64,000 nt of DNA, taken from positions 28,426 through 92,425 of the IMG/VR virus record IMGVR_UViG_3300010397_000041. One strand, 5' to 3'. This stretch comes from a virus. Under the pieces are notes generated by a model. It searched no databases, was not told the DNA's origin, and saw only the letters and a list, made by a program, of their open reading frames with translations. Numbering within the stretch: position 1 is the stretch's first letter; the number at the start of each line of letters is the position of its first letter. The translations under genes were made by a program, and so were the position numbers. This document shows, piece after piece, positions 7,935 through 37,358 of the stretch.

Positions 7935-8128
7935 CAGCCCTCACCACCCTCGGAAACAGGCGCCGGAACCTCGAGGGGCTCGGCGGGGTCAGACCCGTCG
8001 GCGGGCTGCCAGCGATGCGGATCGGGCGCGGCCGCCAAGTCGACGACGTCACCGGGTCGTGCGGTCAGCGAGAGGTCCGGGTAGTAGCGCTCCAACCCGT
8101 CGGGCGGGTGGTAACGGAAGGCGGGCAC
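7934..8128 (-). CDS. Small phage structural-operon protein, unknown function
   Basis: 64 residues, GTG start, beginning MPAFRYHPPDGLERYYPDLS and then LTARPGDVVDLAAAPDPHRW. It is a small Pro/Asp-rich soluble protein coupled to the tail tube gene by a TGATG overlap. Short proteins with a similar H-PPDGLERYYPDL start occur between head and tail genes of actinophages, but no function is known to me. It may be a head-tail or tail-tube accessory. Confidence 0.6.
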   Translation of the reverse strand: MPAFRYHPPDGLERYYPDLSLTARPGDVVDLAAAPDPHRWQPADGSDPAEPLEVPAPVSEGGEG

Positions 8129-8137
8129 GGCGACGCG

Positions 8138-8172
8138 GCCCCTCCCTTCGGGCTCGTAATGGTGGGAGGGGC
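8138..8172 (-). terminator. 9-bp perfect hairpin between small tail genes
   Basis: GCCCCTCCC (8138-8146) and GGGAGGGGC (8164-8172) form a perfect 9-base-pair stem with a 17-base loop, between the 59-residue and 64-residue genes. There is no U-tract in either direction, so it may be an RNA stability or attenuation element and not a true terminator. Confidence 0.4.
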
Positions 8173-8185
8173 TGGCTGACGGTGG

Positions 8186-8365
8186 CTACCCGCCGGCGAG
8201 GAAGCTGTCGAAGGCGCGAGCCCAGCCGATGACTACATCGGAGGTCGCCGAGCGGGCCGCCTGGTGTTCGCCAAGCCAGTCCAACGCCCGGTCGAGCGCG
8301 GCCAGCCTGCGCAGTTGCTCGGGCGGCAGGTCTGGGTAGACGTCGCCGGGCTCGTCGTCATCCAC
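8186..8365 (-). CDS. Small acidic protein, unknown function
   Basis: 59 residues from GTG 8365, starting MDDDEPGDVYPDLPPEQLRR and continuing with a helical Leu/Ala-rich stretch (LAALDRALDWLGEHQAARSA) and ending AFDSFLAGG. The acidic helical composition is clearly protein-like compared with the other frames. It lies between the basic protamine-like gene and the 64-residue gene; the opposite charges of neighbours may be meaningful, but this is only an impression. No family recognised. Confidence 0.55.
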   Translation of the reverse strand: MDDDEPGDVYPDLPPEQLRRLAALDRALDWLGEHQAARSATSDVVIGWARAFDSFLAGG

Positions 8366-8371
8366 CGGGCA

Positions 8372-8785
8372 TCACGTCTTCTTTTTGCGTCGGGTGCTCT
8401 TGCGACGATGAGCGGGCTTCTTGTGGTGAACGCCTTTTCGCCGCGGTTTGTGAGATCCCCTGTGATGGTGTTTCAGCCCGCGTCGCCTGTGTTCGTGAAT
8501 CCCCTTGCGGCGGTGGATCGGATGTTTCAGGTGCCGGTGGCCACCCTTACGGCGATGGACGACCGTCCGGCGGTGCTGGTGGCGTAGGCCACGGCGACGG
8601 GTACCGCGTCGTCTCGATGCCCGTGTCCCTCCGCGGTTCCGCTTCGAGTTTTTGATCTCTTTGCGGACATGGAAGGAGCGGCGGAACGACTTGCCCGGGT
8701 TTCGGTTGCGGGACCGGAAGCCGCGGATATGCAGGCCCTTGCGGGCATGATGTCGGACGACGCGGACCCGGTAGTCGCGGGCCAT
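8372..8785 (-). CDS. Extremely basic Arg/His/Lys-rich protein (protamine-like)
   Basis: 137 residues, ATG in a TGATG overlap with the upstream gene. After about 35 residues of mixed sequence (MARDYRVRVVRHHARKGLHI) the protein is almost wholly Arg, Lys and His, with tandem RRKG/HRRRG/HHK motifs and an RRKKKT end. There are almost no acidic residues after the midpoint. Such composition suggests nucleic-acid binding or packing against DNA, RNA or acidic virion proteins. It lies in the head-tail joining and tail-tube segment, so it may be a minor virion component. The assignment as coding rests on the tight coupling to both neighbours. Confidence 0.6.
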   Translation of the reverse strand: MARDYRVRVVRHHARKGLHIRGFRSRNRNPGKSFRRSFHVRKEIKNSKRNRGGTRASRRRGTRRRGLRHQHRRTVVHRRKGGHRHLKHPIHRRKGIHEHRRRGLKHHHRGSHKPRRKGVHHKKPAHRRKSTRRKKKT

Positions 8786-9327
8786 CAGGAGATCACAAGC
8801 TCGGTGGCGGTTGTGACCATGTCGACGCGCACGTAGAACCGGTTGTCCTTCACATCCGGCTCACCTGGGCTGATGTCGATCTCCTCGCCCGCTGTCGAGA
8901 TCGTGTCGAACTTCCGGCCGCCGGTGCCCCATGTCCGGTCCAGCCGGGTGCGGGTGACCAGAGAGTCGAGGAACGTGTCGAAGTCGGCCATCGCGGCCTC
9001 GGTGCGTTGCTGCCGCGAATGAAACTCGATCTCCAGGTAGATCGTGTAGTCGATCTGCTTCTCGCCGCCCGGCGCGATGCCGTCGACACCGCCGCCACCG
9101 AGCGCCCGGCGTCGCTCCTTGGAGTGGACGAGATGCACGGTGCAGACCGCGCCGCTGACCACACCGGAGCCGGGCCAGAAGTCGTCGTCGTTGATCGAAC
9201 GCGGGGGCGCGGTCCACAGGGTGCCCATGAACTGGACGGCGGAGTCGCGGTACATCGTCGGCCGGGTCGGCTGGGCCCGGCCGCCGAACCAGGTGGCGGT
9301 CGCCGCGCGGACGGTGGTGCGGGACAT
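8785..9327 (-). CDS. Putative head-tail joining / tail terminator protein
   Basis: 180 residues; GGGAGG precedes the ATG by 4 bases. Sequence has VVSGAVCTVHLVHSKERR, IDYTIYLEIEFHSRQQRTEA and AMADFDTFLDSLVTRTRLDR, an alternating beta/helix pattern like tail-completion or tail-terminator proteins (Ndp/gpU-like fold), and its place after the connector gene fits. I do not recognise a specific family, so function is inferred from context. Confidence 0.5.
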   Translation of the reverse strand: MSRTTVRAATATWFGGRAQPTRPTMYRDSAVQFMGTLWTAPPRSINDDDFWPGSGVVSGAVCTVHLVHSKERRRALGGGGVDGIAPGGEKQIDYTIYLEIEFHSRQQRTEAAMADFDTFLDSLVTRTRLDRTWGTGGRKFDTISTAGEEIDISPGEPDVKDNRFYVRVDMVTTATELVIS

Positions 9328-9340
9328 GACGCCTCCCGGC

Positions 9341-10495
9341 TCAGATCGCCACGCGGGCGTACCGCTCGAGGATTTCCGCGGCCGCGGCTTCCATGGCCTC
9401 CATGTCCGGGCCGAGGTCCTTGTCGAGCGCGGCCGTGCCGGTGTCCGAGGACTTGCGGACGTAGACGGTCGCTATCTGCCCGACGGCGATCTTGATGTCG
9501 AAGGGGAGCGTGCCTATCCCCGTGCCGGCGCTGTGCGCGTTGACGGTGCCCACGGCGAGCGGCACCGTCCCCGGCCCGACCGCCGGTGTCCAGGTGGAGG
9601 CGACGGTGACCTGCTCCTCGACACCTGGGTCGGTGATGCGCAGCTGCTCACCGGGCTGGATCCCGGTCGTGTCAGCGAGGATCAGACTCGTCACGCCCGC
9701 GGTCGCCGCCGACGTGAGCGCGGAGATCGGGTAGCCGGCGATGTAGTCGAATTCGACGGCGACCGTGCCGCCGGACGGCGGGCCGAACTGGAATCCGCCC
9801 ATCCAGCTGCCCGACGGCGACAACGGGATGATCATCGCCCCGTCTTCGACCCACAGCGCGCCCGGTGTGACCGTGGTCGCCGGCCCGCCGACGGCCGCCG
9901 AGTAGGCGACCCGCGTGCAGGAGATCGGCGGCACATGACCGGAGGTCTGCCGGGGATGTAGCCGTAGGCAGCCGTCGCGGCCGATCCGCGCTGTCTCATG
10001 CTCGGCGAGCACCTGGTGGGCGCCGAGCTGAATGTTGCAGTAGTTGTCCGCCCACCTGCTCGCGCGCAACAAAATGTTCGCGAGCTCGCTGTCGTTCGCG
10101 GCCGCGGACGCGTTGGCGATCAGATCGTCGAAGTTCACACCGGTCGGCATCGCGCGGAACTCGGCGTTGGTCAGGTAGCTACCCGGCCAGCCGAAGATCT
10201 GCCCGGCGTCGCTGCCGACCGACGACGGGAGAACATCGAACTGGCCCTCGTAGGCCGTGTTCGGCAGCGTCGAGACCGCGTGATAGCCGTAGTGCCCGGA
10301 CGCCGGCGGCAGCCAGTCGACGTGGCAGGTGCCGGTAGCGTCGTGACTGACTGCCGGTGTCTGCGTCGTCCCGTCGGGGAGTTTGACAGTGACGACCATC
10401 GTCGCCGGGTCGATCGGCTGCCCGGTCGTCGGATCGGTGACGACGAACGGGCCGAGGCGGACCTCCTGGCCAAACGGGTAGGGCGTCGTCGACAT
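9341..10495 (-). CDS. Head-tail connector protein with Ig-like and beta modules
   Basis: 384 residues. The N-terminal 80 residues form a beta-rich Ig-like segment (LGPFVVTDPTTGQPIDPATM, TVKLPDGTTQTPAVSHD). Residues about 100-165 are helical (LTNAEFRAMPTGVNFDDLIA, ANILLRASRWADNYCN), the pattern of gp6/gp15-type connector proteins. A module at about 255-325 (GVTSLILADTTGIQPGEQLR, EEQVTVAS, AHSAGTGI) resembles the one in the tail tube protein. The C-terminus is helical (MEAAAAEILERYARVAI). Placement upstream of tail genes supports a connector/adaptor role. Confidence 0.65.
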   Translation of the reverse strand: MSTTPYPFGQEVRLGPFVVTDPTTGQPIDPATMVVTVKLPDGTTQTPAVSHDATGTCHVDWLPPASGHYGYHAVSTLPNTAYEGQFDVLPSSVGSDAGQIFGWPGSYLTNAEFRAMPTGVNFDDLIANASAAANDSELANILLRASRWADNYCNIQLGAHQVLAEHETARIGRDGCLRLHPRQTSGHVPPISCTRVAYSAAVGGPATTVTPGALWVEDGAMIIPLSPSGSWMGGFQFGPPSGGTVAVEFDYIAGYPISALTSAATAGVTSLILADTTGIQPGEQLRITDPGVEEQVTVASTWTPAVGPGTVPLAVGTVNAHSAGTGIGTLPFDIKIAVGQIATVYVRKSSDTGTAALDKDLGPDMEAMEAAAAEILERYARVAI

Positions 10496-10513
10496 CGGCG
10501 CCCCACCCGTCTG

Positions 10514-12712
10514 CTACTGATCCAGTCCGGTCATCGACCCTGCAGGCGAGTCGCCGCCCGTCATCCCGCCCGCCGCCATGTCTCCGCCGGTGACATGCGC
10601 CCACAGCGGATAGACCCGCGGCATGACGAGCTGCTGCCCGCGCCGCCACGGCCGCGACGGCGCGCGCCGCGTGGCGATCACCGGGGGTGGCACCCAGATA
10701 CCGCGCGGTCCCTGCGGCCACGGCGGCTCGGCGAACCTGCCCCTGCGGGGCCGGGCCGCAACCGGCCGCCGCGACGATGGCCGCGGCACCGGGCACGGCG
10801 TTGACCACGTGGGCTCGGCGAACCGACCCCGCCGGGACCGGACCGTGCCCGGTCGCCGCGACGCCATCGGCGACGGCGGCCAGGGGGCCGTCCCGCCGAA
10901 CGGGCCGCCGAGGAACCGTCCGCGGCGGACCGGGCGGACCGCAGGCCGCCGGCTGGTCGTGTTGCCCGGGGGGAACAGCGGACCAGGAGGCGGGATGTCG
11001 AAGACCCGTGCCCGGCGGACTACCCGGACCGCGGGCCGCCGGGACGCCGACGGCGACGATGGGACTGGTGGGATGACCTGCGGTGGAACCGTTTCGGCGA
11101 ACCGTCCCCGGCGGGTGGGCCGGGATGGTGCCCGCCGGGTTGCGGCGACCGCCGGAGGCAGCCACAGACCCTGCAACCCTTGCGGCCAGGGCGGTTCGAA
11201 TGAATGCCCGCGCCGCAGCTTCGGCGCCCACCTTGGCCGGTTGCCCGCCGGCGCGACCGCCGGTGGCAGCCACTTGCCCTGAGTGCCCTGCGGCCACGGC
11301 GGGGAAGCGACCTTGCCTCGGCGAGGCAGCGGGAACCAGCGGGGACGGAACCCGGCCGGGTCCGAGATCCCCGGAAACGGCTGGGTTTGTAGGCCCTGTG
11401 GCCACGGCGGCGACCAGCTGGCCCCACGCCGCAACTTCGGCGCCCACCGCGGGCGGGAGCCAGGCTGGTCGTAGATCCCGGGGTACGGCTGCGACTGGAC
11501 GCCCTGCGGCCAGGGAGGCTGGAAGAACCGGCCGCGTGGCTTCGGCTGCCAGCGGGGTTTCGACCCGGGCTGGCTGGTGAAGCTCGGCCACGCCTGCCCG
11601 GTGTTGCCCTGCGGCCACGGGGGCTCGAACAGCCGGCCTCGGCGGGTCGGCCGGGCAGGAGCCCGCCGCATCGCGATGGTCGCCGGTAGGAACGTGCCGA
11701 TCGGCGCCGGCGGGACCGCGATGATCTGCCCACGCCGGGTCGGACGTGCCGGGGCCCGTCGGGCGGGGATCGACTGGCCGACCAGAGCCGGTGGGGTGAG
11801 CGCCGGCCACGGCGGCTCAAACAGCCGGCCCCGGCGGGGCAGCGGGAACCAGCGTGGATGAGTGCCGGCCTGCCGCGTCTGGTCGGGCAGCCACCCACCG
11901 CGGGTCGCCTGCGGCCACGGCGGCTCGGCGAACCGGCCTCGGCGGGTCGGCCGGGCCGGCTGATGCCGGGCCGTGACCGACGGCGGAGGGAACGGGACCG
12001 GCGGATACCACGGCGGCTCGGCGAACCGGCCGCGGCGGGGACGCGGGAACCAGCGTGGATGGCTGCCCGCCTGGGCGGTGACGGTCGGCCAGCGCTGCCC
12101 AACCGGGCCCTGGGGCCACGGCGGCGACCAGCTGGCCCCGCGGCGGAGCTTCGGCGCCCACCGCGGGCGGGAGCCAGGCTGGTCGTAGATCCCGGGGTAC
12201 GGCTGCGACTGGACGCCCTGCGGCCAGGGCGGATCGAACCGGTGGCCACGGGCGATCCGCGGCGCCCAGCGGGGCCGGTAGCCCGCTGGCTCCGTGAAGC
12301 TCGGCCACGCCTGGCCCCGGGTGGCCTGCGGCCACGGCGGCTCAAAGGTCTTGCCACGTCGCAGCTTCGGAGCCCACCGCGGCCGCGACCCCGACTGGTC
12401 GTAGATCCCCGGGTACGGCTGCGACAGCGGCCCCTGCGGCCACGGCGGGTCGAACGACCTGCCCCGCCGAAGCTTCGGCGCCCACCGCGGCCGCGAACCG
12501 GCCGGCTCGATGAACGACGGCCAGCTCTGCCCGGTGTTGCCCTGCGGCCAGAAGTCGAAGTACCGGCCCCGGCGAGGACGCGGGAACCAGCGGGGACGGC
12601 TACCGGCTTGCTTCGGGTCGGTGGGCCACGCCTGGCCTTGATTGGCCTGGAGGAGGTTGGGCTCGAACCTCTTGCTGCGACGCGGCCAGGCGCCGCGCCA
12701 GCGCCGCAGCAT
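10514..12712 (-). CDS. Arg/Pro/Trp-rich tandem repeat protein (about 20 units)
   Basis: 732 residues. Almost the whole protein is about 20 imperfect units of 28-36 residues with the scheme PGSRPRWAPKLRRG followed by FEPPWPQG and a spacer such as QPYPGIYDQ. Units around residues 150-185 and 400-435 are identical over 36 residues and nearly identical in DNA. Later units are shorter (RRAPARPTRRGRFAEPPW). The C-terminal 28 residues change to a Gly/Met/Asp motif (MTGGD). It has almost no Lys-free acidic content and is strongly basic, suggesting extended, polyproline-like structure. It sits between surface-like proteins and the connector. Function unknown; virion tether, decoration or nucleic-acid/cell-wall binding are possibilities. 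Confidence 0.75.
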   Translation of the reverse strand: MLRRWRGAWPRRSKRFEPNLLQANQGQAWPTDPKQAGSRPRWFPRPRRGRYFDFWPQGNTGQSWPSFIEPAGSRPRWAPKLRRGRSFDPPWPQGPLSQPYPGIYDQSGSRPRWAPKLRRGKTFEPPWPQATRGQAWPSFTEPAGYRPRWAPRIARGHRFDPPWPQGVQSQPYPGIYDQPGSRPRWAPKLRRGASWSPPWPQGPVGQRWPTVTAQAGSHPRWFPRPRRGRFAEPPWYPPVPFPPPSVTARHQPARPTRRGRFAEPPWPQATRGGWLPDQTRQAGTHPRWFPLPRRGRLFEPPWPALTPPALVGQSIPARRAPARPTRRGQIIAVPPAPIGTFLPATIAMRRAPARPTRRGRLFEPPWPQGNTGQAWPSFTSQPGSKPRWQPKPRGRFFQPPWPQGVQSQPYPGIYDQPGSRPRWAPKLRRGASWSPPWPQGLQTQPFPGISDPAGFRPRWFPLPRRGKVASPPWPQGTQGKWLPPAVAPAGNRPRWAPKLRRGHSFEPPWPQGLQGLWLPPAVAATRRAPSRPTRRGRFAETVPPQVIPPVPSSPSASRRPAVRVVRRARVFDIPPPGPLFPPGNTTSRRPAVRPVRRGRFLGGPFGGTAPWPPSPMASRRPGTVRSRRGRFAEPTWSTPCPVPRPSSRRPVAARPRRGRFAEPPWPQGPRGIWVPPPVIATRRAPSRPWRRGQQLVMPRVYPLWAHVTGGDMAAGGMTGGDSPAGSMTGLDQ
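10650..12660 (-). repeat. Tandem coding repeat, about 108-bp period
   Basis: DNA underlying the repeat protein. Near-identical segments of about 100 bases occur at about 11410-11518 and 12122-12230, and shorter blocks such as GGCTCGGCGAACCGGCC and GGGTACGGCTGCGACTGG recur. High identity of some units against divergence of others indicates recent duplication or gene conversion. Confidence 0.75.
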
Positions 12713-13374: not shown

Positions 13375-14088
13375 CTAGAAGAAGCTGTTGTACTGGCCGG
13401 TGATCGGCGGGACGACCACACCGCCATAGGGGCCGGGGTATGTGGTGTCTGTCCAGACGACGTCGTCGATGTTGACTGTCGTGTTTGAGGCGCCAGTCGG
13501 CATGCCCACGCGAAGCTGGCTGATTGCGGACGACGAGCCGGTGTTCGTGGCCCCGCTGTTCAGGGTTTCGGCTGGGTTGGTCCCGTCCGGCGCGGTGAAA
13601 ATCTTGAGAGTCGCCGAGCCGTTGGTGCCGGTGCCAGCGGTCGCGCCGAGCTCAAACCTGTACCAGGTGGACGTGGACAGCGTGGTGGTGCTGGTCGTCG
13701 AACCGGTCGTGCCGTTCCACAGCAGGGTGATGGTGCCGGCCGAGTTGAGGCGGATCCCCGCGATGTTGGTAATACCACCGGACATCAACGTCGCGATGAC
13801 AATGTTGCTGCTCAGCGACGATGGGAGCAGGGCGTACACCCGGCAGTAAGTGGTGGTGGCCGAGACGCCGGAGGTCCAGGCGCAGTACGGCGAGCCACTG
13901 ACCCCTGTCGTCGCGTACTGGCCGCTCAGCGTGCCGTGGGCGGCGAAGGTGGAGTCATATTTGGCGGTGCCGATGGTTGTGGAAACCGTGTTCCACTGGT
14001 TGTCGCTGGCGCCTGAGTTGGACGTCGAGATCGCAGTTCCGGAGGACTGGCCGGATTCGTAGGAGTTGGTGAGGGTCGCCACCGGCAC
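13375..14088 (-). CDS. Concanavalin/LamG-like structural protein
   Basis: 237 residues, GTG start with GAAGG 7 bases upstream. Sequence is Ser/Thr/Gly-rich with the pattern of a carbohydrate-binding jelly roll: ANYDSTFAAHG-like opening, TTYCRVYALLPSSLSSNIVI, IRLNSAGTITLLWNGTTG, TWYRFELGATAGTGTNGSAT and VNIDDVVWTDTTYPGPYGG. The last motif (ID-V-W) is typical of LamG-like phage proteins. Likely a virion surface or fibre protein. Confidence 0.65.
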   Translation of the reverse strand: MPVATLTNSYESGQSSGTAISTSNSGASDNQWNTVSTTIGTAKYDSTFAAHGTLSGQYATTGVSGSPYCAWTSGVSATTTYCRVYALLPSSLSSNIVIATLMSGGITNIAGIRLNSAGTITLLWNGTTGSTTSTTTLSTSTWYRFELGATAGTGTNGSATLKIFTAPDGTNPAETLNSGATNTGSSSAISQLRVGMPTGASNTTVNIDDVVWTDTTYPGPYGGVVVPPITGQYNSFF

Positions 14089-14120
14089 CGACCATCCTTC
14101 TCAGGCCAGTTCCCGGACAG

Positions 14121-14387
14121 TCAGCTCACGATGCGGATGATCGTGTCCGTGTCCGGGTCGACCTCGACCGACAGCGGGCCGTGCTCGGTATCCACCGACG
14201 CGGAGGTGTAGCCCGAGTGCGGGACCAGCCCGGCGATGGACTGGCCCACCGCAGGATTGGCCGGGTCGAACGGCGGCGGCGGGGCCGGCGGTATCGGGGC
14301 TGGTGGCGGTGTTGGGGCTGGCGGCGTCGGTTTCGGGGTGGCGGCGGCGCGGGGCTGCCGCGCCGTCGCCGTGTTGGCCCCGGCCAT
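14121..14387 (-). CDS. Small Pro-rich protein with beta C-terminus
   Basis: 88 residues. The ATG at 14387 overlaps the upstream stop by one base (TGATG). Residues 1-45 are Pro/Ala-rich (PTPPAPTPPPAPIPPAPPPP); residues 46-88 form a compact strand-rich end (SIAGLVPHSGYTSASVDTEH, LSVEVDPDTDTIIRIVS). A Pro-rich linker with a small folded domain would suit a virion-attached accessory. No family recognised. Confidence 0.5.
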   Translation of the reverse strand: MAGANTATARQPRAAATPKPTPPAPTPPPAPIPPAPPPPFDPANPAVGQSIAGLVPHSGYTSASVDTEHGPLSVEVDPDTDTIIRIVS

Positions 14388-15250
14388 CAGGTGACGATGA
14401 CCAGCGGAATCGTTCCGACGGTCGTCGCGCCGGTGATCGTCGCCGGGGCGGTGGTCGTCAGCGATGAACCTGACGTCTGCGCGAGGATCTTGTTCCCGGC
14501 GATGACCGCCGCCGACGCCCCCGCACCGGCCCGGCCGGTGCCGGCGAGCGACGGCGGAGTGGTCGCCTTCACCATGATCGCCGCGTAGTACACGGCCGTC
14601 GTGGTGATCGTCTGCGGGGTGGTGAGCGCGACGGTCTTCGCTGTCTCCGCCGCCCACGCCGTCGACGTCTGGTCCGCGGTCTGCGCGAGCAGCGCCGGCG
14701 TCGCGGCCGAGCTGTACAGGGCGAACCACCAGTTGGTGGGCGTGCCCGCCGCCGTCGCACCCGAGACGAAGGTCAAGTTCGTGACGACCGTTCCGGCGGG
14801 CAACCAAATCGCGACCGACGTCATCACCTGCGTCGTCAGCGCGGCCAGATCCGTCCCCGCCTGGCTACGCGCCAGGTTGCTGTAGTTCACGCCAGCCGGT
14901 GACCCGTCGAGGGCGTACGCCTGCTGGGCCGCATAGGCCGCCGCGAGACCACCGGCCGCGTTCAGCGGCGCGTCGATCGGCAGGTAGATCCCGACCGGGT
15001 AGTTGGCCGCGATCAGAATCGAACCGTTGTACAGGTCGACCGCGGCGACGCCGTTCGTCGCGAACTCGGCGAACCCCGAGCCGTCCGTCGTGAACTGGCC
15101 CGACGAGGACAGCACGGTGGTCAGCGTCGGATCGGTGTACAGGGTCACCGTCGTGCTGGTGCCAGGGACCTTGGCGGTGAGGGTCGTCGACCGGATCGGG
15201 TTGACGCCGTCCGGCGCCACGACGCGGGCGAAACGAAAAGCGGTGGCCAT
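14387..15250 (-). CDS. Fibre/decoration-like structural protein
   Basis: 287 residues from ATG 15250 with GAAGGAG 8 bases upstream. N-terminus MATAFRFARVVAPDGVNPIR, then beta-rich region TLYTDPTLTTVLSSSGQFTT, DLYNGSILIAANYPVGIYLP, a mid helical linker and a second beta domain (TNWWFALYSSAATPALLAQT, AVYYAAIMVKATTPPSLAGT). The two-domain beta layout is typical of phage fibre or head-decoration proteins that hold carbohydrate-binding folds. Function inferred from context. Confidence 0.55.
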   Translation of the reverse strand: MATAFRFARVVAPDGVNPIRSTTLTAKVPGTSTTVTLYTDPTLTTVLSSSGQFTTDGSGFAEFATNGVAAVDLYNGSILIAANYPVGIYLPIDAPLNAAGGLAAAYAAQQAYALDGSPAGVNYSNLARSQAGTDLAALTTQVMTSVAIWLPAGTVVTNLTFVSGATAAGTPTNWWFALYSSAATPALLAQTADQTSTAWAAETAKTVALTTPQTITTTAVYYAAIMVKATTPPSLAGTGRAGAGASAAVIAGNKILAQTSGSSLTTTAPATITGATTVGTIPLVIVT

Positions 15251-15252
15251 CG

Positions 15253-15504
15253 TCAGTTCTCCTTCGGGTTGTCGCGCCCGCAGCGGGAACAGCGACGAAA
15301 CAGCGACTTGAAGCCGCAAGGGCACGGAAAGCCGGCCGCGCGCGTCACGCCGCCGACATCGGCAGGGAAAGCGCCCTGGTCGCGAAGCATCCGAATGTGC
15401 CGCCGGTCTTCCACATCGAACGTGCGGCCGTTGTAACGGGCCGTGCCGGTTTCGGTGCGGACGTCGATGCCCCTGCAGGCGCCGTCGGGTACGGCCATGC
15501 GCAT
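15253..15504 (-). CDS. Small zinc-ribbon-like phage protein
   Basis: 83 residues. MRMAVPDGACRGIDVRTETG, then DRRHIRMLRDQGAFPADVGG and a Cys cluster CPCGFKSLFRRCSRCG (C-x-C, then C-x2-C), likely a zinc ribbon. I recall similar short proteins downstream of capsid genes in actinophages with the same VPDG-CRG start and Cys end; function is not known. Stop is just upstream of the next gene's ribosome site. Confidence 0.65.
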   Translation of the reverse strand: MRMAVPDGACRGIDVRTETGTARYNGRTFDVEDRRHIRMLRDQGAFPADVGGVTRAAGFPCPCGFKSLFRRCSRCGRDNPKEN

Positions 15505-15507
15505 CGG

Positions 15508-15789
15508 TCAGCTCCCGGGGGCGTAGGCGTAGGAAATGGTTCCGGTGCCGGCCGACGTGGCGACCAGCTTGGCGCCGCCGAGCAGCCAGGACACGGGCAC
15601 GCCGACGGGCAGCACAAACCCGGTCGGACAGGTCGGGCCGGTCAGGGTGACCGCGGTCGTGCCGGCGATCAGCGTCACCGCGCCCGCGAGCCCCGGCGCC
15701 GGGCGGATGTTCTCGACCGGGATCGACACCCCGCCGACCGTGGCTGTGACGTTGCCGGTGACGAACGGCGGGGTTGGGGCGGCGACCAT
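15508..15789 (-). CDS. Small beta-rich structural protein, unknown
   Basis: 93 residues, ATG in TGATG overlap. Pro-rich start MVAAPTPPFVTGNVTATVGG then strands (VSIPVENIRPAPGLAGAVTL, LPVGVPVSWLLGGAKLVAT). Looks like a small Ig-like or head-decoration protein by composition and position after the capsid gene. Unrecognised. Confidence 0.5.
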   Translation of the reverse strand: MVAAPTPPFVTGNVTATVGGVSIPVENIRPAPGLAGAVTLIAGTTAVTLTGPTCPTGFVLPVGVPVSWLLGGAKLVATSAGTGTISYAYAPGS

Positions 15790-35153: not shown

Positions 35154-36605
35154 TCAATTCACCATGTCGACAAACCGGCTGTAGTGCCCTTGGAATGCCA
35201 CGGTGATCGTGCCGGTCGGGCCGTTGCGGTGCTTGGCGACGATCAGATCGGCCTCGCCGGCCCGCGCTGACTCCTTCTCGACCATGTCTTCGCGGTACAG
35301 CAGGATCACGATGTCCCCGTCCTGCTCGATCTGGCCAGAATCACGCAGGTCGGCCAGCGTCGGGCGCTTGTCCGCGCGCAGGTCGGAGGCCCGGTTGAGC
35401 TGGCTGACGACCACGACTGGGATCTCCAGCTCCATCGCGAGCGTCTTCAAGCCGCGGCTGATCTCGCTGATCTCCTGGACCCGGTTGTCGCGGCGGCCCG
35501 CCGTCATCAGCTGCAGGTAGTCGACGAGCAGCAGTCGCAGGTCGTTTCGCTCGTAGAGACGCAGCGCCGCAGCGCGCAGCTCCTGCACGGTCAGGCGAGG
35601 CCAATCGTTGATGAACAGCGGCGCCTCGGCGACCTCGCCCATCCGCCGGGCGAGCCGGCCCCAGTCGTCCTCGGTCAGCCGGCCGGTGCGCATGTTCTGC
35701 AGCGAGACTCGCGCCTCCGCGGCCAGCAGCCGGAGCGTCAGATCGACCCCGGGCATCTCCAGGCTGTACAGCGCCGTCGTCATCCCGTATTTGATCGCCG
35801 CGGCGCGGGCGATGTCGAGACACAGCACCGACTTTCCGACGCCCGGCCGGCCCCCGACGACGACCAGCTGGCCGGGCTGCAGCCCATTCGTCAGGTCGTC
35901 GAGCTCGGCGAACCCGGTCGGCACCCCGGTGATCCCACCTTCGTGGGCAGCGATGGCCTCGATCGCGCCAAGCGCCGAGCCGAGCAGGTCTCCCAGGGGT
36001 CGGGATGGCGGCAGCTTCGTCGATCCGGACAGCCGGGCCGTCGGTCGGGCCACAGACGGCGCTTCGAGGACGACCTGGTCGAGGGTTCTCTCGGTGACCC
36101 GCCGGGCCGGCCGGTCGAAGTCCGCCCACGCTCGGACCGCGGCTAGCACCTCCCTGCAGGGGGCGTCCGGCGTGACCCGGGTGTCCAGGATGATCGCCGA
36201 CTCGTGGTTGCCCCGCAGGCCGGAGAATGTCAGGTTCGCCGACCCGGCCAACACGGTCTCGGACCCGTCGCCGCGGCGGATGTAGTAGCTCTTGGCGTGC
36301 ATCAGCGGTTGTTCGTCGTCGCCGTCGACGAGCAGTAGCGTCGCCCGCGAGCCGTGCGGCTCGAATAGCGCCGCGACTGCAGCCAGGTCGGCCGCGGAGA
36401 CCTGCTCCTCCCGGGCGCCGGTGACCAGGTGGACTTCACCGCCGCGGTCAAGGATGGCCGCCAGGTGCGGCTGGATCAGCTTCAGTCCGTGCTCGGTCAG
36501 GTAGCCGGTTTGGGCGGCAAAGACTCGCGCTTCCTTGAGCTCGGTGAGCATCCATCGCTCGACGGTGTGGTCGGGGCCGCCGGCGGCGGTGTCGAGATAG
36601 CGCAC
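35154..36605 (-). CDS. PLD-type nuclease fused to DnaB-type replicative helicase
   Basis: 483 residues, GTG start. N-terminal ~170 residues have the phospholipase-D-like nuclease pattern: LMHAKSYYIRRGDGSETVLA (HxK: H103, K105), then GSANLTFSGLRGNHES (121-136), preceded by FAAQTGYLTEHGLKLIQPHL. From residue 225 it matches the DnaB C-terminal helicase: GVPTGFAELDDLTNGLQPGQ, Walker A GGRPGVGKS (251-259), YSLEM, Walker B LLLVDYLQLM (358-367), VVVVSQLNR, RDSGQIEQDGDIVILLYRED. The DnaB N-terminal domain is absent, replaced by the nuclease. One gene could give strand unwinding plus nicking/repair or a defence function. Promoter region shared with the divergent PIN gene. Confidence 0.85.
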   Translation of the reverse strand: MRYLDTAAGGPDHTVERWMLTELKEARVFAAQTGYLTEHGLKLIQPHLAAILDRGGEVHLVTGAREEQVSAADLAAVAALFEPHGSRATLLLVDGDDEQPLMHAKSYYIRRGDGSETVLAGSANLTFSGLRGNHESAIILDTRVTPDAPCREVLAAVRAWADFDRPARRVTERTLDQVVLEAPSVARPTARLSGSTKLPPSRPLGDLLGSALGAIEAIAAHEGGITGVPTGFAELDDLTNGLQPGQLVVVGGRPGVGKSVLCLDIARAAAIKYGMTTALYSLEMPGVDLTLRLLAAEARVSLQNMRTGRLTEDDWGRLARRMGEVAEAPLFINDWPRLTVQELRAAALRLYERNDLRLLLVDYLQLMTAGRRDNRVQEISEISRGLKTLAMELEIPVVVVSQLNRASDLRADKRPTLADLRDSGQIEQDGDIVILLYREDMVEKESARAGEADLIVAKHRNGPTGTITVAFQGHYSRFVDMVN

Positions 36606-36863: not shown

Positions 36864-37358
36864 GTGCCCAGACGCTTTGTGCTCGATTCCAATTTCTTTG
36901 ACGAGCTGGTGAAGTCGCCCGAGGCCTACCAGGCCACCAGAGCCGCGGTCGAGGGAGCCGCCACCGAGCTGCTCGTCGACACAATGGTGCTCGGCCAGCT
37001 CGGCGCCACCAAGGACATCGCCAAGCGGACTCAGATGCTGGCGTATGCCAATGAGCTGTGCCGCCGGGTGGAGCACGGCGGCGCTGGGTATGGCATCGGT
37101 CCGTACGGTGCAGGCCCGTACGGCGGCGCCCGGCCCGCCGAGATGCCGATCGCGACCGCCGTGATCGGCAACGCCACCAATAACGGCACGATGGCCGACT
37201 CCGCCATCGCCGCGACCGCACACTACGAAGGCGCCGTCCTCGTCACTCGCGACGGCGCGCTCCGGAAGAAGGCAACTGCAGAGGGCGTGGAGGTTCTCTC
37301 GCCTGCGGAGTTCTTCACCGAGATCGGTTTCGACACTGCGGAGGCCGCCTCGCCGTAA
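36864..37358 (+). CDS. PIN-domain ribonuclease (VapC-like)
   Basis: 164 residues. RFVLDSNFFDELVKSPEAYQ carries the first acidic residue (D8), ADSAIAATAHYEGAVLVTRD the second and third (D112, D130), and GVEVLSPAEF is the typical last strand. Residues 72-90 form a Gly/Tyr-rich insertion. PIN proteins cleave RNA and act mostly as VapC-type toxins. No obvious antitoxin gene adjoins it; the divergent partner is the PLD-helicase fusion. Alternatively it is a repair or RNA-processing nuclease. Confidence 0.75.
   Translation: MPRRFVLDSNFFDELVKSPEAYQATRAAVEGAATELLVDTMVLGQLGATKDIAKRTQMLAYANELCRRVEHGGAGYGIGPYGAGPYGGARPAEMPIATAVIGNATNNGTMADSAIAATAHYEGAVLVTRDGALRKKATAEGVEVLSPAEFFTEIGFDTAEAASP

Follow-up and report, generated by a model that had tools for sequence, protein, structure and literature searches.

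Among the known restriction and defence enzymes are fusions of a PLD nuclease with a superfamily 2 motor. In Nhi and other immunity proteins a nuclease and a helicase are combined in a single chain, and T7 gp4-type primase-helicases possess a DnaB-type motor with an extra N-terminal enzyme domain. In DnaB the N-terminal domains assemble as a trimer of dimers, with the linker helix packed onto the adjacent motor (PMC4705694). The PLD domains of SauUSI, a type IV ATP-dependent restriction endonuclease, dimerise, and the catalytic site is pre-formed by both HxK motifs (PMC7913695). The gene analysed here encodes a PLD-superfamily domain fused to a DnaB motor and is located in a stretch of 64,000 nucleotides (the window), which belongs to a 92,425-base IMG/VR record. 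This record encodes a terminase, a portal protein, a tape measure protein, an integrase, RecT and a relative of exonuclease VIII and was therefore regarded as a temperate phage or prophage.

Domain architecture and predicted structure

The features of the fusion gene are listed in Table 1. Homologues of the ORF share its start Met (MRYLD / MRVVD). The motifs ascribed to the protein in a preliminary description of this DNA, namely HxK (H103/K105), GSANLT and NHES in the N-terminal part as well as Walker A, Walker B and RDSGQIEQDGDIVI in the motor half, were all found at their places. A PLD profile match had been anticipated within residues 1-170 and was obtained for residues 47-143 (Pfam PLDc_2, E 2e-9) with 37.8 bits, the gathering cut-off being 27 bits. 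The DnaB_C domain is complete (residues 227-479, E 4.8e-95). In phmmer comparisons with solved DnaB structures most alignments start at residue 200-220, i.e., at the linker helix, and none was seen before about residue 149 of the fusion protein. Since the matches mostly begin at 200-220, the helical N-terminal domain of DnaB is missing and the linker helix is kept, so that the proposed replacement of the former by a PLD-superfamily domain was borne out. With 354.4 bits the fusion misses the curated DnaB score of NCBIfam TIGR00665 (cut-off 385.25).

Table 1. Features of the PLD-DnaB fusion gene (positions in the window).
Feature	Position	Strand	Remarks
PLD-DnaB fusion gene	35154..36605	(-)	483 aa, GTG start
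PLD-superfamily domain, residues 1-165	36111..36605	(-)	Pfam PLDc_2; AlphaFold2 fold similar to SauUSI and BfiI
HxK motif H103-A-K105	36291..36299	(-)	sequence motif
GSxN motif GSANLT 121-126	36228..36245	(-)	invariant across all four lineages
Connector, residues 166-203	35997..36110	(-)	low-confidence, probably flexible; pLDDT <50 up to residue 199
DnaB linker helix, residues 204-220	35946..35996	(-)	phmmer alignment to Bst DnaB from residue 203; predicted helix
DnaB_C superfamily 4 motor, residues 227-479	35169..35927	(-)	Pfam; matches Bst DnaB 4esv
Walker A, residues 251-259	35829..35855	(-)	sequence motif
Walker B, residues 358-367 (D362)	35505..35534	(-)	sequence motif

At the acidic position of the classical HxK(x)4D/E motif the fusion carries Arg110, and the nearest PLD-DEAD helicases are likewise devoid of the acidic residue. 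A superfamily 2 motor with a target-recognition domain as in SauUSI is absent according to Pfam; the fusion protein ends with DnaB_C. None of the PADLOC defence families matched the protein over its full length, and the weak matches obtained comprise one half of the fusion each (DrmC 3e-7, PbeA 1e-6, ZacB 2e-6, mad8 2e-6). Primase/helicase families of PHROGs were matched as well. No sigma-70-type promoter was found near the gene. Directly upstream and in opposite orientation, a gene encoding a PIN-domain-like protein is located (window 36879-37358, plus strand; PF01850, E 2e-4, just under the cut-off), for which no antitoxin partner was recognised.

The PLD part was modelled with AlphaFold2 from a five-row alignment, which yielded a model of moderate confidence (mean pLDDT 63). 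Its top PDB match is SauUSI (E 1e-6, TM 0.57), followed by BfiI (4e-4), both of them restriction enzymes; the predicted N-terminal fold is thus that of a PLD protein, as had been assumed. The motor is confidently predicted in the full-length model and superimposes on Bst DnaB 4esv (rmsd 1.8, 285 columns). Confidence is low for residues 114-199, and a helix predicted for residues 204-220 corresponds to the linker helix.

Distribution of the fusion and separate histories of its halves

A search in other genomes recovered the same fusion repeatedly. Frankia sp. AiPa1 carries a full-length copy which is 82% identical to the window protein. More distant copies were found on two Pseudonocardia megaplasmids derived from Apterostigma ants, where they are annotated just as 'DnaB-like helicase C-terminal domain-containing protein', and a further divergent lineage is present in the actinobacterial genome G1006. 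These four lineages (window, Frankia AiPa1, Pseudonocardia and G1006) were compared. An assembly chimera or chance was ruled out by the independent copies, the 82% identical one deriving from a separate Frankia assembly. The PLD-DnaB fusion is a real, conserved architecture. The preliminary description did not recognise the combination as known, and no description of a PLD-DnaB protein was found in the openly licensed papers searched.

The fusion is rare. It occurs in 1/35 genomes sampled in the Frankia order, in 1/395 and 1/397 genomes sampled from the class and the phylum (always the same Frankia), in 1/347 genomes of another order and in 0/229 of one family, which amounts to two of about 1,000 sampled genomes overall. 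The PLD part had no match among 50,697 phage records. Viral contigs scanned with the complete protein, with its PLD part and with three alignments yielded no further fusions, and the PLD motif is absent from 45 viral DnaB relatives wherever an ORF could be picked by motif. The next-nearest PLD domains are part of open reading frames about 1,050 aa long that also encode DEAD-type helicases, and such frames are found in many Actinobacteria.

The supposition that the fusion would be conserved with intact motifs applied in part: GSxN is retained in all four lineages, but the His of HxK in two. HxK is intact in the window and Frankia copies; in the copies of Pseudonocardia and G1006 the catalytic His is exchanged for Asn (NxK). 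The Pseudonocardia copy additionally shows an exchange of the Walker A Lys for Arg. With the His intact in 2/4 lineages, nuclease activity is not constant across the fusion family; judged from its motifs, it is plausible for the window protein. Comparison of the window and Frankia genes resulted in a dN/dS of 0.23 for the whole gene (PLD part 0.18, residues 151-205 0.41, motor 0.22). Purifying selection acts on both halves in this lineage.

The PLD domains of the four fusions form one clade (support 99/98), whereas the motor halves do not in DnaB trees calculated from cleaned sets. In cleaned sets without long rows, the window and Frankia fusion motors group with the chromosomal DnaB of Frankia with 99-100% support, and the same grouping reaches 93/86 with the Pseudonocardia copy in the tree. 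A single motor clade including the G1006 fusion was rejected by the AU test, with p 0.005-0.006 in three versions from which the long-branched Pseudonocardia copy had been left out and with p 0.014 in the one version that contained it. An earlier DnaB tree, in which intein stretches had been left, did not reject one clade (AU p 0.62) and was superseded after intein removal. The fusion motor is about 71-74% identical to Frankia DnaB. The motor of the G1006 fusion shares 61.5% identity with the DnaB of its own genome versus 55-56% with the Frankia-type fusions; its grouping with the DnaB of its own order does not appear in the best tree, yet was not rejected (AU p 0.11-0.15). The window/Frankia motor half derives from the Frankia-type DnaB lineage, and the fusion motor seems to follow the local DnaB. 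With one PLD clade and motors of different affiliation, the simplest reading is that fusion to the resident dnaB, or recombination with it, took place repeatedly.

The chromosomal dnaB genes of Frankia and G1006 are apparently split by intein-like stretches near Walker A, that of G1006 near DLRESG too; the fusions are free of such stretches. Second, divergent DnaB-family proteins with DnaB-like N-termini, which form a branch of their own, were observed in actinobacterial genomes (G1006:C6, G755 and G037).

Genomic context

The genes near the fusion in the window are phage genes. The Frankia order contains a relative, 57% identical, of one protein from the left arm of the record, in line with a Frankia-like soil bacterium as host of the putative phage. 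The portal protein of this phage was not found in the Frankia AiPa1 genome. DNA similarity between the window and Frankia is limited to the fusion gene and about 50 bp upstream, as expected of mobile cargo and as if the gene moves alone.

In Frankia a GajA/GajB pair (E 1e-185 and 1e-139) is encoded 9.4 kb from the fusion, with a gene for an Mrr-type nuclease in between. At 3.0 kb from the Pseudonocardia fusion lie a gene resembling GajA and a short one resembling GajB next to an IS21 element. This GajB-like gene encodes 290 aa and abuts IS21, so the Gabija-like pair may be broken (locus L005, positions 8091-11157). Among the tested neighbours of the G1006 fusion no defence gene was recognised. 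Gabija is a common system, and with just three bacterial loci available the neighbourhood may be due to chance.

Left of the window, at record positions 13479-15634, a radical SAM/SPASM protein is followed by a PCMT-type methyltransferase; both resemble a peptide-modification pair. A related methyltransferase (28% identity) is encoded near the Frankia AiPa1 fusion. The early region of the window (about 39-64 kb) holds a long series of small genes on the minus strand that match no family. Of 49 early-region proteins scanned, HTH regulators, one SpoU-type methylase and a weak match to the replication-initiation family phrog_270 (E 5e-5) were the only ones named.

Proposed function and comparison with known systems

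The presence of the same fusion beside anti-phage genes in two other bacteria suggests a defence or competition enzyme over an ordinary replication protein. We consider it quite possible, if short of probable, that the fusion is a mobile cargo gene for an anti-invader nuclease-helicase which mimics DnaB to reach replication forks, a mechanism we infer. This reading is favoured by the domain content, the intact motifs, the fold matches to restriction enzymes, the Gabija-type neighbours, purifying selection, the sharing of little more than the gene itself and the single PLD clade on motors of different affiliation. Against it stand NxK in two of the four lineages, the lack of a recognised defence neighbour in G1006 and the phage genes around the window copy.

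A fork-targeting nuclease-helicase is suggested by the symmetry of the DnaB collar and the SauUSI dimer together with the match between motor and local DnaB. As in DnaB, the linker helix would pack the fusion motors into a hexamer, and PLD dimers would replace the dimerising collar with its symmetry kept. PLD nucleases of this type are dimers whose active site is contributed by both protomers, so the six PLD domains of a ring could provide up to three nuclease sites at the collar, where primase would otherwise dock. Host loading factors or forks could accept the fusion, since its motor resembles the resident DnaB, and this similarity suggests that the motor must fit host partners. Single-stranded DNA threading the ring would come upon nuclease sites in the place of primase. 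Phages or plasmids relying on host-type forks would be cut or stalled, and a prophage with the fusion gene would exclude competitors. More far-reaching, and rather doubtful as a whole, is the idea of an immune or competition family in which one PLD clade was repeatedly joined to the resident replicative-helicase motor, a trimer-of-dimers nuclease collar takes the place of the primase collar and the forks of invaders are reached via normal helicase loading.

The strongest rival, which we regard as somewhat unlikely, is a DnaB decoy for which cutting is dispensable: the protein would join or replace host-type DnaB rings, bind no primase and block the replication of competitor or host, with the PLD domain mainly serving as an oligomerisation or DNA-binding collar. 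A motor that follows the local DnaB and the loss of the primase-binding N-domain agree with this, and the NxK members, one of which has lost the Walker A Lys too, favour the decoy for their branch; in the window and Frankia, however, HxK, GSxN and the low dN/dS of the PLD part argue for a working active site.

The preliminary description had named phage replication beside defence or exclusion. Defence was a reasonable guess; a replication or recombination helicase of the phage itself, with a PLD domain trimming DNA, is the weaker reading and appears unlikely. It is true that the fusion is the sole DnaB-family match in the record, and the scanned early proteins included none assigned to another helicase, primase or polymerase family. 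But the RecT and exonuclease genes are about 20 kb away, the phage records screened contain no counterpart, the primase-docking domain is lost, and the notion of a phage-specific enzyme is contradicted by the other three lineages, which reside in bacterial loci where no phage module was recognised and which in two cases have Gabija-type genes nearby.

A host-derived repair or fork-processing enzyme acquired by mobile elements is very unlikely: the motor is close to chromosomal DnaB, but the gene is rare and resides on a megaplasmid as well as in a phage. A chance or decaying fusion devoid of function, as its rarity and the degenerate look of both active sites in Pseudonocardia might suggest, is extremely improbable and already disfavoured by purifying selection over the whole gene and by the PLD clade common to four lineages.

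Should the anti-invader nuclease-helicase act in the proposed way, imitation of DnaB would be its route to replicating DNA, and since the motor repeatedly matches the local DnaB, its specificity for partners (DnaB, loader, primase) lends itself to direct tests. The nuclease-helicase chain of Nhi-type proteins shares the mode proposed here, action on phage replication intermediates, but its nuclease and helicase families are unrelated to those of the fusion. The PLD proteins DrmC of DISARM and DpdK of Dpd gave weak matches to the PLD domain, far under the curated cut-offs, and the scanned genes included none recognised as DrmAB or Dpd. With replicative DnaB the fusion has the linker helix and the complete C-terminal motor in common; where DnaB carries the helical collar and primase-docking domain, the fusion carries PLD. 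In T7 gp4-type enzymes the added N-terminal domain is a primase, whereas that of the fusion is a nuclease-type PLD domain. SauUSI represents the closest fold, and the PLD-DEAD helicases of about 1,050 aa from Actinobacteria contain the closest PLD sequences outside the fusion family. Like the fusion, both are composed of an N-terminal PLD domain, a linker and an ATP-driven nucleic-acid motor. SauUSI has a target-recognition domain, which is not seen in the fusion, and the motor of SauUSI and the PLD-DEAD helicases belongs to superfamily 2 (DEAD/helicase). The motor of the fusion is of the DnaB ring type and belongs to superfamily 4, which makes the protein a novel variation on the PLD nuclease-motor theme.
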